This document shows positions 51,725 to 56,031 of a stretch of DNA of 64,000 nt, one piece after another (position 1 is the stretch's first letter; each line of letters begins with the position of its first letter). The position numbers and the translations under genes were made by a program. This DNA comes from a virus, in the IMG/VR virus record IMGVR_UViG_3300030109_002859, positions 1 through 64,000 of that record. One strand, written 5' to 3'. Below the pieces are notes generated by a model, which was not told the origin of the DNA, ran no database searches, and saw only the letters and a program-made list of their open reading frames with translations.

Positions 51725-52111
51725 TTATTTTGGATATATAGCAAAGGTATCGGCATATTCAGCCAAACAATAACCTTGGGCTCTTCTATACCCATATTGT
51801 GTTTTACTACAACCCCTATACCTAATTCTAAAATTACCCGTTCTCATCATATTCCTAATAGTCGGGTTCCACCTATACATCATAGGAATATCTTTATAAC
51901 AAGCTTGTTCAAGATAAGGAGCTTCATAATATTCTAACCTTAATTCAGGTTGATTCTGATTAGCTTCATATAATTCCATAGGATTGTGTGCATATTGATA
52001 GACATTCATAGTAAATGTCCTATTATCAAAACCAAAAGCTCTTGGAACTTTCGTATCAGCAAAATCTCTCATATAAATACCTTCAGTATCAGTTGTTATA
52101 ACTTCATTCAT
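51725..52111 (-). CDS. Hypothetical protein (minus-strand island)
   Basis: 128 residues. It starts at ATG complementary to 52109-52111, sharing one base with the upstream stop (TAATG), so it is co-transcribed with the gene at 52111-52335. It is rich in Tyr, Arg and Asn, with NVYQYAHNPMELYEANQNQPELRLEYYEAPYLEQ (~36-69). No family recognised. It faces the tail genes and ends at a bidirectional terminator, suggesting a separately timed gene, perhaps early. Confidence 0.55.
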   Translation of the reverse strand: MNEVITTDTEGIYMRDFADTKVPRAFGFDNRTFTMNVYQYAHNPMELYEANQNQPELRLEYYEAPYLEQACYKDIPMMYRWNPTIRNMMRTGNFRIRYRGCSKTQYGYRRAQGYCLAEYADTFAIYPK

Positions 52112-52335
52112 TACAAGTTTTCCTTTCCGTAAATTTCTATTAATCTTGTGTCGTTTAATCTTTTTTCTCTCAACATATCGTAGTAAGGTCTATCTTTTGC
52201 GGCATAATAGAATTTCATAGTCCCATACATAAACATAAATTCTTCTAATCTTTTCAGTTGTTCTATTAGAAATCTTAGAAAAGGAACAATACCTTTTCCA
52301 ATCACATACTTACCGATTATCATCCTAACTAACAT
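52111..52335 (-). CDS. Hypothetical small protein (minus-strand island)
   Basis: 74 residues beginning MLVRMIIGKYVIGKGIVPFLRFLIEQLKRLEEFMFMYGTMKFYY. A hydrophobic, basic first half could associate with membranes. The second half is charged. The ATG lies five bases after the -10 box of a sigma70-like promoter, implying a leaderless mRNA; an inner in-frame ATG at 52323 is the alternative start. Confidence 0.55.
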   Translation of the reverse strand: MLVRMIIGKYVIGKGIVPFLRFLIEQLKRLEEFMFMYGTMKFYYAAKDRPYYDMLREKRLNDTRLIEIYGKENL

Positions 52336-52607: not shown

Positions 52608-53096
52608 ATGGCTGAAATGCTTGACCCAAATGATATATTTTTTACGCCGTTTGAACCAAAAGTGGCAAATCGTTTCGTTATGGAAATTGACGGAATACCA
52701 GCATATCTTGTTAAAACAATGGCAAGACCTTCAATTCAATTTGAAACAATCACACTTGACCATATAAATGTCAAGAGATATGTGAAAGGTAAAGCAGCTT
52801 GGCAACCTATAACAGTGACCTTATACGACCCAATCGTTCCATCAGGAGCACAATCAGTTATGGAATGGGTAAGACAACACCACGAATCAGTAACAGGTCG
52901 TGATGGATACTCAGACCAATACAAAAAAGATATTACATTCAATGTATTAGGGCCAGTCGGTGATAAAGTTGAAGAGTGGACATTAAAAGGTGCATTCATT
53001 CAACAAGCAGATTTTAGTGATATGGACTATTCTGCAAATACACCAGCAGAAGTTTCATTAACACTTCAGTATGACTACGCAATACTACAATTCTAA
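52608..53096 (+). CDS. gp19: Tail tube protein (gp19-like)
   Basis: 162 residues, matching T4 gp19 (163). The N-terminal FTPFEPKVANRFVMEIDGIPAYLVKTMARPS (~12-42) and WQPITVTLYDPIVPSGAQSVMEWVRQHHES (~64-93) are the tube signature. The fold is a beta barrel that stacks as hexameric rings inside the sheath. AGGAG at 52596-52600 supports the start. Confidence 0.95.
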   Translation: MAEMLDPNDIFFTPFEPKVANRFVMEIDGIPAYLVKTMARPSIQFETITLDHINVKRYVKGKAAWQPITVTLYDPIVPSGAQSVMEWVRQHHESVTGRDGYSDQYKKDITFNVLGPVGDKVEEWTLKGAFIQQADFSDMDYSANTPAEVSLTLQYDYAILQF

Positions 53097-53107
53097 GGAG
53101 ATAAATT

Positions 53108-53323
53108 ATGTGGGCTATGTTTAAAGACGACAATGATATTAATGAAAAAGCAGTAATTGGTTTTTGTTCATTTGCAGTAATGACATTATTTGCAGTAGTT
53201 GATTTAACAACAGGAATTTGGGGAAAAGATTTAGTTATAAATGATATGGTATACAATTCATTTGTATTCGTAACATTAGGTTCTTTCGGTATCGCAGGTG
53301 CTGAAAAGATAATGAAAAAATAA
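53108..53323 (+). CDS. Small two-TM protein, candidate holin
   Basis: 71 residues with AAGGAG at 53096-53101. Two hydrophobic segments (VIGFCSFAVMTLFAVVDL, ~16-33, and FVFVTLGSFGIAGAE, ~52-66) are joined by a polar loop and end in a Lys-rich tail (KIMKK). That is the usual plan of a class II holin, which would release the GH108 endolysin encoded at 18486. Distance from the endolysin makes the assignment tentative. Confidence 0.5.
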   Translation: MWAMFKDDNDINEKAVIGFCSFAVMTLFAVVDLTTGIWGKDLVINDMVYNSFVFVTLGSFGIAGAEKIMKK

Positions 53324-53357: not shown

Positions 53358-54131
53358 ATGGCTGAAAATCAGTATGGATTTCCTACTGAGGTTCTATCTT
53401 TACCATCACAGGGTTTATTGTATCCTGAAGATAGTCCTTTGCGTAGTGGAACAATAGATGTCAAATATATGACAGCAAAAGAGGAAGATATCTTAACTTC
53501 CGTAAATCTAATTAATCAAGGTATAGTGATTGACAAACTTTTAGAAAGTGTCATCGCAGATTCAAAAATTAAGTTAGATGATATGTTAGTTGGTGATAAA
53601 AATGCACTTATGGTTGGAACTCGTGTTTTAGGATATGGTAAAAACTATGAGATTTCAGTTTTAGACCCAGATACAAATGAACGAGTAGAATACACTATTG
53701 ACTTAACATCATTAAAACATAGAAAAATAAACGAAAAGGTTTACGAAAATGAAGACACTTTTTCATTTGAATTACCTAATTCTAAACGAGTAATTGGATT
53801 CAAATTACTAACTCATAAAGACGAAGACGAAATAAAACAAACTTTGAAAGACTATGAAAAAGTTGAAAAGCTTACAGGAATTTCTCAAGGTTTATCTATT
53901 CGTATGAAACAATCAATTTTATCAGTAGATGGAAATGACGACAGAAAATTTATTAATGATTTTGTTGATAATGAGTTTTTAGCACTTGATACAAGAGCAT
54001 ACAGACAATATGTAGATTCCATTACTCCCGACATTGAGTTGAAGTTTGACTATATGAGTCAAACAGGGAACCAACATAGGTTGGATGTCCCACTCGGGAT
54101 AGAATTTTTTTGGCCAGCCGCCGGAAAATAG
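53358..54131 (+). CDS. gp26: gp26-like baseplate/tail-assembly protein, pre-frameshift product
   Basis: 257 residues, near T4 gp26 (208). The conserved start is LPSQGLLYPEDSPLRSGTIDVKYMTAKEEDILTSVNLINQGIVIDKLL (~15-62), a pattern of T4-like gp26/tail-chaperone proteins. It ends at TAG 54129-54131, but a T7 run at 54105-54111 and a GC stem immediately after it precede a second open frame with gp51-like sequence. The gene therefore probably makes a short and a longer product. It lies upstream of the tape measure, the place of tail-assembly chaperones. Confidence 0.75.
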   Translation: MAENQYGFPTEVLSLPSQGLLYPEDSPLRSGTIDVKYMTAKEEDILTSVNLINQGIVIDKLLESVIADSKIKLDDMLVGDKNALMVGTRVLGYGKNYEISVLDPDTNERVEYTIDLTSLKHRKINEKVYENEDTFSFELPNSKRVIGFKLLTHKDEDEIKQTLKDYEKVEKLTGISQGLSIRMKQSILSVDGNDDRKFINDFVDNEFLALDTRAYRQYVDSITPDIELKFDYMSQTGNQHRLDVPLGIEFFWPAAGK

Positions 54132-54327
54132 GGCGGCCATACACGAAGAACTCTTTAACATTGCCTATTATGGTAATGGATTCAATCACAACGAACTCTA
54201 CAATATGCCAGTTCCTTTAAGACGATTTTATGGTAGGAAATTAATAGACGCAAAAAAGAAAGAAGCTGATTCATATAAGCAATCTCAAGATTCACAAATC
54301 TCTCGTCCAAACTTCCAAAAATCTTAA
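54103..54327 (+). CDS. gp51: gp51-like extension in the +1 frame, reached by frameshift
   Basis: The +1 frame is open from 54103 to TAA 54325-54327 and has no ATG, GTG or TTG before the conserved part. After the slippery run it reads GQPPENRAAIHEELFNIAYY..., then NELYNMPVPLRRFYGRKLID and a charged end, a plausible T4-like gp51/chaperone C-terminal domain. A +1 slip gives a protein of about 322 residues joined to the gp26-like part. Independent initiation, for instance at a rare ATA codon, would be the alternative. Confidence 0.65.
   Translation, partial: NFFGQPPENRAAIHEELFNIAYYGNGFNHNELYNMPVPLRRFYGRKLIDAKKKEADSYKQSQDSQISRPNFQKS
54105..54137 (+). promoter_or_regulatory. Candidate programmed frameshift site (T7 run plus stem-loop)
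   Basis: GAA TTT TTT TGG in the gp26 frame: the seven T (54105-54111) let two Phe tRNAs re-pair perfectly one base forward. Five bases later GCCGCC (54117-54122) pairs with GGCGGC (54132-54137), and the loop contains the gp26 stop codon. This is a rare GC-only stem in an AT-rich genome. Confidence 0.65.
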
Positions 54328-54645: not shown

Positions 54646-56031
54646 ATGCAAGATTTACTTAATGTCGACTTTACTGATATGACTCCCGCTCAGGTGCAGG
54701 GATTCTTAAATGATGTAAAAAAAGAAATCGCCCGTATTATAAAGCAAGGTGATGACGGAGATGCGGAAAGACTTAAAAAGCTTAAAGGTATAACCAGAGA
54801 AGCTACTGACTTTCTTAAAATTACGGACGAAACCAAAGATATACAGATGGAACTTGTAAGACTTCAGCAAGAGTCACTTACCATAGCTGATACGGCTGCA
54901 GACGCAGCTAAAAATTTTGTAAGCCAGATAAAGTCACAAATAGAGACTATCCCGATTATTGGCTCAGCCATAGCCGGTTTTATTGACTTTGACGCAGTGG
55001 GTGATAGAGTTAAATTAGCGGTATTGTCACCTTTCGCTAACATTGCGCCAGCATTAGATAGTTCAAAAGCTCCGTTAGAAAGATTTGGTCTCGCGTTTAA
55101 AGCCGCTTTAGGCCCAATAGTTGCAATCTTAGCAATAATTGCAGGAGCAATAACTGCAGCACTTCTTAAAGTCAGAAATTTATCAAAAGAATTGGGAACT
55201 TCATTTGCCCAAGCCAGTCGATTAGCCAAAGAAACTACAGTGGCCGGTTTTGGGTTGTTAGGGACAGGTCAAGACGCTAGTGCAATAGCAGGTGAAATAG
55301 TAGACACTTTCGGTTCATTATCAAATGTAACGGCAAACAACATTAAAGATATTGGAAGATTAGCAACAAGATTTGGTGCAGCATCTAAAGATATCGTTGC
55401 CTTCCAAAAGTCATTGACGGATACATTCGGAGTATCAGTTAATCAAAGTGAAGCGATTGTAGAAAATGTTGGTAAATTAGCAGAAGCAGAGGGTGTAGCA
55501 GCTGGTAAAGTTATCGCTGACATAGCAGCAAATACTGAAAAGTTTGCTGAGTTCGCAAAAGGTGGGGCAGATGGATTTGCAAATGCAGCTATTGAGGCAG
55601 CAAAAATTGGAAGTAATTTGTCAGCAGTGTTAGGAGCAGCAGATAAATTATTAGACTTCGAATCAAGTTTAACAAATGAATTCGAAGCACAAGTAATAAC
55701 AGGAAAGTCTTTCAATCTTGAACGAGCAAGACAACTTGCACTACAAGGTGAAATAGGACAACTATCTCAAGAACTCGCATCACAAGTTGGTTCATTAGGT
55801 GACATTCAAGCTATGAATGTAATAGAAAGACGTTCAATAGCTTCAGCGATTGGAGTTTCCGCTGATGACTTGATGAAGATAGCTCGTGGTGAAGCAGTGC
55901 AGGCAGAAGAAACAGTTCAAGATTTACAAAAGAAAACTAATGATATTTTAAAAGCTGGATTTAGTAAAGACGAAGAAAAATTAAATGAGTTGATTAATCA
56001 ACAAGCACAAAATCGAACTATATATGAGTAG
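54646..56031 (+). CDS. Tape measure protein (gp29-like)
   Basis: 461 residues. The composition is Ala/Ile/Glu-rich and helical, with a hydrophobic patch IVAILAIIAGAITAALL (~162-178) typical of tape measures and with long alanine-rich helical stretches to the end. It follows the gp26/gp51-like chaperone genes and precedes the tube-cap gene, the usual order. T4 gp29 has 590 residues, so the tail should be shorter than that of T4 if the length rule holds. No transglycosylase motif seen. Confidence 0.7.
   Translation: MQDLLNVDFTDMTPAQVQGFLNDVKKEIARIIKQGDDGDAERLKKLKGITREATDFLKITDETKDIQMELVRLQQESLTIADTAADAAKNFVSQIKSQIETIPIIGSAIAGFIDFDAVGDRVKLAVLSPFANIAPALDSSKAPLERFGLAFKAALGPIVAILAIIAGAITAALLKVRNLSKELGTSFAQASRLAKETTVAGFGLLGTGQDASAIAGEIVDTFGSLSNVTANNIKDIGRLATRFGAASKDIVAFQKSLTDTFGVSVNQSEAIVENVGKLAEAEGVAAGKVIADIAANTEKFAEFAKGGADGFANAAIEAAKIGSNLSAVLGAADKLLDFESSLTNEFEAQVITGKSFNLERARQLALQGEIGQLSQELASQVGSLGDIQAMNVIERRSIASAIGVSADDLMKIARGEAVQAEETVQDLQKKTNDILKAGFSKDEEKLNELINQQAQNRTIYE

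Follow-up and report, generated by a model that had tools for sequence, protein, structure and literature searches.

Comparative evidence for probable +1 frameshifting in the tail-assembly chaperone gene of a large group of T4-like phages

Results

A gp26-like gene is overlapped by an open +1 frame

The window, the whole 64 kb stretch of DNA analysed here, belongs to a 65,884-base IMG/VR viral record. It carries a gp26-like gene between a tail tube gene (PF06841) and a long ORF that is a putative tape measure by position only, in the order gp19-like tube, 71-aa ORF, gp26-like gene, short lysine-rich ORF, long ORF. The features of the locus are as follows.

52608..53096, + strand: tail tube protein (gp19-like), the upstream neighbour (PF06841, E 7.8e-8; phrog_4542, E 3.2e-35)
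53358..54131, + strand: gp26-like gene in frame 0, 257 aa, putative short tail-assembly chaperone (TAC-N; PF12322, phrog_150; AF2 model, mean pLDDT 91)
54100..54102, + strand: +1-frame stop TAG, the 5' bound of the possible shift region (from the sequence)
54105..54115, + strand: putative slip site TTTTTTTGGCC (TTT-YTT-T(GG/AC/AT)-CC in 155/155 +1 homologues, one starting TTC)
54112..54327, + strand: +1-frame continuation, 71 codons and stop, putative C-terminal domain (TAC-C, gp51-like; codon-position substitutions, weak phrog_634, helical model of pLDDT 84)
54117..54122, + strand: hairpin 5' arm GCCGCC (covariation)
54123..54131, + strand: hairpin loop, containing the 0-frame stop TAG 54129-54131 (from the sequence)
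54132..54137, + strand: hairpin 3' arm GGCGGC (covariation)
54646..56031, + strand: long ORF in tape-measure position, 461 aa (putative function, from position only)

Profile searches matched the gp26-like part to PF12322 (T4_baseplate) at 34.4 bits, above the curated cut-off of 24.5, and to phrog_150 at E 3.1e-10. For the long ORF the same kind of search found nothing in Pfam and nothing significant in PHROG; a tape measure is annotated after gp26 in Flavobacterium phage immuto, HTVC008M and Cr30. The 71-aa ORF (window 53108-53323) has a membrane-spanning look, and Cr30 has a similar-looking small ORF, but between gp51 and the tape measure. Just 5' of the tube gene, two minus-strand ORFs (128 and 74 aa; window 51725-52335) oppose the direction of the tail operon. 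No tRNA genes were found in the 64 kb window.

The 0-frame stop of the gp26-like gene (TAG, 54129-54131) lies 17 bases past the run TTTTTTT at 54105-54111, which is read in the register TTT TTT TGG. The +1 frame has no stop from 54103 until a TAA at 54325-54327 and encodes FFGQPPENRAAIHEELFNIAYYGNGFNHNELYNMPVPLRRFYGRKLIDAKKK... Two stops, at 54100-54102 in the +1 frame and at 54129-54131 in frame 0, confine any shift between the frames to 54103-54128 (~26 bases). A sequence-only reading of the window had described this junction, with a GCCGCC/GGCGGC stem five bases beyond the T run and the stop in its loop, and the sequence confirms that description. It had also held that the gp51-like +1 frame lacks a usable start codon, and this too was borne out: the first ATG/GTG/TTG of the frame is the ATG at 54207, which lies inside the conserved domain and would cut it. 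At the window's GC content of 33%, an open overlapping frame by itself is no rarity: when the ends of 108 long stop-to-stop frames were examined over an equal span, 25 open frames were counted. The weight of the argument therefore falls on conservation among homologues.

The +1 direction and the slip site are conserved

In all, 157 junctions with a stop came from the window, two isolate records and two sets of 80 viral contigs, one with close and one with more distant gp26 relatives. These are loci and not independent events, some contigs being present in both searches and many being related. The gene continued in +1 in 155 of the 157, supporting the earlier proposal that a programmed +1 shift joins the gp26-like and gp51-like parts. 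One exception is a contig that ends early (L022). The other is L198, where a -1 continuation and the site TTCTTCTGG, with YUU_U lost, are found close to where the gp26 match ends (about 3738); this is either a real switch or an assembly error. All 13 genome-bin contigs (mostly Flavobacteriales, down to 35% identity) also continued in +1. A sequencing error in the T run, which the sequence-only reading had raised as another source of the frame change, is thus excluded by recurrence of that change in metagenome contigs (44-87% protein identity), isolate phages and the genome-bin contigs.

Comparison of the slip site across homologous phages showed that it was kept in all 155 +1 loci, as TTT-YTT-T (in one case TTC-TTT-T), starting 15-24 bases before the stop. 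The commonest form was TTT TTT TGG CC (110 loci), followed by TTT TTT TAC CC (34) and TTT CTT TGG CC (9); TTT TTT TAT CC and TTC TTT TAC CC (L189) occurred once each. Twelve of the 13 genome-bin loci had TTT TTT TGG CCT just before the stop, or TTT TTT TTC CCT (L285), and the thirteenth (L290) had TTT TGG CCT about ten codons before it. Among isolates, the site was TTT CTT TGG CCT in Flavobacterium phage immuto, TTT TTT TGG CCT in Microcystis phage Mel-JY01 and TTT TTT TGG in Rhodothermus phage RM378. None of the phage records inspected carries a frameshift annotation at the gp26 junction. The T7 run that had been taken as the slippery sequence is present in most loci but is not required, since TTTCTTTGG and TTCTTTTAC also occur; the constant element is YUU followed by U.

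The second codon of the site was TTT in 146 of the 155 loci, CTT in nine and TTC in none. Seven other conserved Phe positions in the same homologues had TTC 10 to 42 times each, and 79% of the upstream Phe codons in the same genes were TTT. On the gp26 protein tree the second codon required a minimum of three changes, all between TTT and CTT, as against 12 to 34 at the seven other positions. At this codon, a non-synonymous change (CTT) is tolerated and a synonymous one (TTC) is not, which is the pattern predicted by a P-site slip from YUU to UUU.

Three Firmicute phages (SP-15, vB_SagM-GXN1 and LIS04; L084, L085 and L087) also continue in +1. Their site is ambiguous: TTT TTT or TTC TTT, or NCC CGA a few codons later (an NCC_C slip before CGA).

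The +1 continuation evolves as a protein-coding sequence

Substitutions 3' of the hairpin were counted at the three codon positions of the +1 frame in 56 distinct sequences of the window's clade. Summed over pairs, they numbered 10717, 5482 and 22608 at positions 1, 2 and 3. None of the 56 sequences had a stop in the +1 frame, and the other two frames were interrupted in 56/56 and 50/56. Mean amino acid identity was 77% in +1 and about 51% in the other two frames. This pattern indicates that the continuation is under protein-coding (purifying) selection.

Profile matches of the +1 piece were few. Eight of 55 pieces matched phrog_634, the T4 gp51 C-terminal piece, weakly (best E 0.0083), and the window piece was unmatched. 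In an alignment of window 54106-54324 with its relatives (A6), seven of 55 matched Pfam DUF6760, a family of unknown function (best E 1.5e-4).

A covarying hairpin follows the site in the window's clade

Within the 64 kb window, the downstream stem is the sole 6-bp hairpin made up of GC pairs alone (loop 3-12). Among 26 distinct sequences, 94.9% of cells were paired and five of the six pairs had changed on both sides, with arms such as GCCGCC/GGCGGC, GCCGGT/ACCGGC, GCCGGC/GCCGGC and GCGGGC/GCCCGC. The covariation score of 0.377 was reached by none of 500 shuffles and fell to 0.11 or less when slid. Two of the 26 rows (L162 and L178) have a hairpin of their own in another register, and L079 has none. 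Folding of 54090-54160 as a single sequence was not significant alone (z -1.42), so support for the hairpin comes from covariation, and an Rfam search gave nothing above gathering score. Comparison of the homologues found no comparable hairpin in most distant relatives. The stem noticed earlier is therefore real and covarying within the window's clade but specific to it: the slip site is the core of the arrangement and the hairpin a lineage-specific accessory.

Relatives use the -1 frame or two genes

T4 gp26 and gp51 both gave strong matches to PF12322 and phrog_150, and the end of gp51 also matched phrog_634. By these profile matches T4 26 and 51 are paralogues, gp51 being a gp26-type domain with a C-terminal piece. 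They are separate genes, as the sequence-only reading had stated, yet not unrelated ones. The phrog_634 piece of P-SSM2, S-PM2, HTVC008M, KVP40 and Cr30 lies in the -1 frame and overlaps the gp26 end, where T TTT TTC or T TTT TTT stands directly before the stop. Cyanophage-type contigs had T TTT TTC in 80/80 cases, with -1 open in all but L209, whose contig ends soon after the stop.

Profile comparison matched the gp26 parts of the +1 and -1 groups at E 1.4e-7. The C-terminal pieces matched between the +1 and -1 groups (P 2e-4) and between the -1 group and the T4 gp51 end (P 7e-7); the +1 piece and the T4 gp51 end gave no direct match in this comparison (P 0.1). Since both the gp26 parts and the C-terminal pieces match, these are taken as one gene pair, expressed through a +1 shift, through a -1 shift or from two genes. 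Judged from their sites, the cyanophage relatives seem to move back by one base at the very point where the window's lineage would move forward.

The cyanophage-type pairs (L201-L280; L116, L117, L118, L119 and L120) are annotated as two genes, with gp51 in -1 at U_UUU_UUC/U, and mostly have a GGAGG-like element upstream. The ATG annotated as the gp51 start in P-SSM2 and S-PM2 is missing in several cyanophage-type loci (e.g. L237, L256 and L268).

Models of the two parts

The gp26 part (AF2) and the +1 piece were modelled separately. The gp26 model (mean pLDDT 91) matched viral T4-like baseplate hub assembly proteins and the SP-15 hub subunit. Among PDB chains re-aligned with VIA-align, its first-ranked match was 2ob9, a tail assembly chaperone of HK97 (79 residues, model 3-93; Z 5.0, rmsd 3.5), which in plain Foldseek ranked only 22 with a weak probability of 0.12; for this model, a link to the HK97 chaperone fold is suggestive only. 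The +1 piece was modelled as a small helical domain (pLDDT 84), and a PDB search with it gave low-Z helical matches only.

Discussion

The conserved frame and the rule at the second codon make it almost certain that, in a large T4-like phage group, the long chaperone form arises when the ribosome skips one base forward at a fixed sequence. Programmed +1 ribosomal frameshifting, with P-site YUU slipping to UUU, is on these comparisons a highly probable source of the long form. Most ribosomes would produce the 257-aa short form by staying in frame 0 until the stop at 54129, and a fraction would pause at UUU UUU UGG with UGG (54111-54113) in the A site. The P-site tRNA-Phe would then detach and re-pair one base forward, from UUU 54108-54110 to UUU 54109-54111, and reading would resume in +1 with GGC (54112-54114). 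In some relatives the slip would be from CUU to UUU, as at bacterial prfB. The predicted long form has about 322 aa, a helical domain at its C-terminus and the junction ...LDVPLGIEFFGQPPENR... Pausing is probably tuned, in this clade, by the 6-bp GC hairpin that lies five bases further on. Lambda G/GT suggests, by analogy, that the short form may coat the tape measure and the extension may recruit tube subunits. Rarity of the A-site codon was considered as a cause and rejected: the window uses UGG at 10.9 per 1000, which is not rare, against 2.8 per 1000 for the +1 codon GGC.

The same frame would be reached in a share of mRNAs if RNA polymerase dropped one T or added two, and the T7 run in most loci speaks for such slippage. 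We regard it as improbable. TTTCTTT is found in nine loci, including the isolate immuto, and TTCTTTT in L189, all of them still +1, and the conserved unit stands in codon register. The T runs in TTTCTTT and TTCTTTT are too short for transcriptional slippage. Because a C breaks the run in ten loci that keep the frame, a ribosomal +1 shift is preferred. A ribosomal shift of -2, as used by phage Mu (PMC5009743), would lead to the same frame with one extra residue (EFFFGQ in place of EFFGQ), and perfect re-pairing is also possible for it at UUU UUU UGG. There is little likelihood of this: in L189 (TTC TTT TAC) the P-site UUU would meet UCU after a -2 step and UUU after a +1 step, so that re-pairing there fits +1 alone, and a +1 step accounts for the constant U that follows YUU, which -2 would not need.

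Production of gp51 as a separate protein, by re-initiation at the gp26 stop, would agree with annotation of the cyanophage gp51 piece as its own gene with an ATG adjoining that stop. It is very unlikely because the start is missing. The ATG at 54207 comes too late in the window, 66 of the 155 +1 loci have no ATG, GTG or TTG in the relevant part of the frame (118 have no ATG), and several cyanophage-type loci also lack the annotated ATG. Finally, a homopolymer at the junction could hint at decay of the +1 piece into a remnant or at a sequencing error behind the frame change, but with the same frame in many contigs and isolate genomes and purifying selection on the +1 protein, the chance of this is negligible.

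A ribosomal +1 shift in a tail chaperone is not without precedent. G-T frameshifting is widely conserved except in T4, tailed phages show -1, -2 and +1 shifts, and a +1 shift is very likely in the tail chaperone of the haloarchaeal myovirus HSTV-2 (PMC5009743). The earlier view that +1 would be unusual here thus holds in that such shifts are uncommon, though they are precedented. HSTV-2 and the structural genes of Listeria phage PSA share +1 frameshifting in tail or capsid genes with the window, but the genes are other ones and the PSA sites are proline codons (PMC5009743). Like lambda G/GT (Levin 1993; Xu 2004; reviewed in PMC5009743), the locus would encode a short form and a frameshift-extended long form just 5' of the tape measure, with the shift a few codons before the stop. 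It differs in that lambda uses -1 and the window's lineage +1, and no sequence relation was found, the HK97 chaperone fold providing a weak link. E. coli prfB (CUU UGA) shares P-site YUU followed by U and a +1 slip to UUU; there, unlike here, a stop codon and an upstream SD-like element are involved, the A-site codon in the window's lineage being UGG, UAC or UAU.

The closest comparisons are with T4-like phages. T4 26 and 51 share PF12322 with the window and correspond to the short form and to a gp26-type domain with a C-terminal piece, but as two separate genes in place of one gene with a +1 shift. The gp26/gp51 of P-SSM2, S-PM2, HTVC008M, KVP40 and Cr30 have the same gene pair, with the shift point at the FF ending gp26, and differ in using the -1 frame at U_UUU_UUY. 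As cited in PMC12846349 and PMC10885494, the T4-like chaperone genes were identified by Vladimirov, Gautam and Davidson (2022, Virology 566:9-15); that work is cited for distinct genes encoding the short and the long copy in some T4-like phages (PMC10885494) and for poly-T -1 signals in T4-like phages (PMC12846349). As far as these citations convey, the general short/long chaperone identity of the T4-like genes is already published. A literature search of limited extent did not find the +1 direction, the site rule or the covarying hairpin described for this lineage, and these are apparently new.

With slightly more doubt than conviction, we propose that one T4-superfamily lineage uses a YUU_U +1 shift aided by a downstream hairpin while sister lineages use -1 at the same codons, that direction has switched within one homologous gene, and that a 3' hairpin may act as a +1 stimulator in bacteria. 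The chaperone gene of the superfamily would keep its two-product output as the means change, by +1 here, by -1 in cyanophage-type phages and by two genes in T4. Such a set would be a natural series for asking what sets the direction of frameshifting. Annotations of isolates, among them Flavobacterium phage immuto and Microcystis phage Mel-JY01, omit the long form and should merge gp26 with the piece that follows it.
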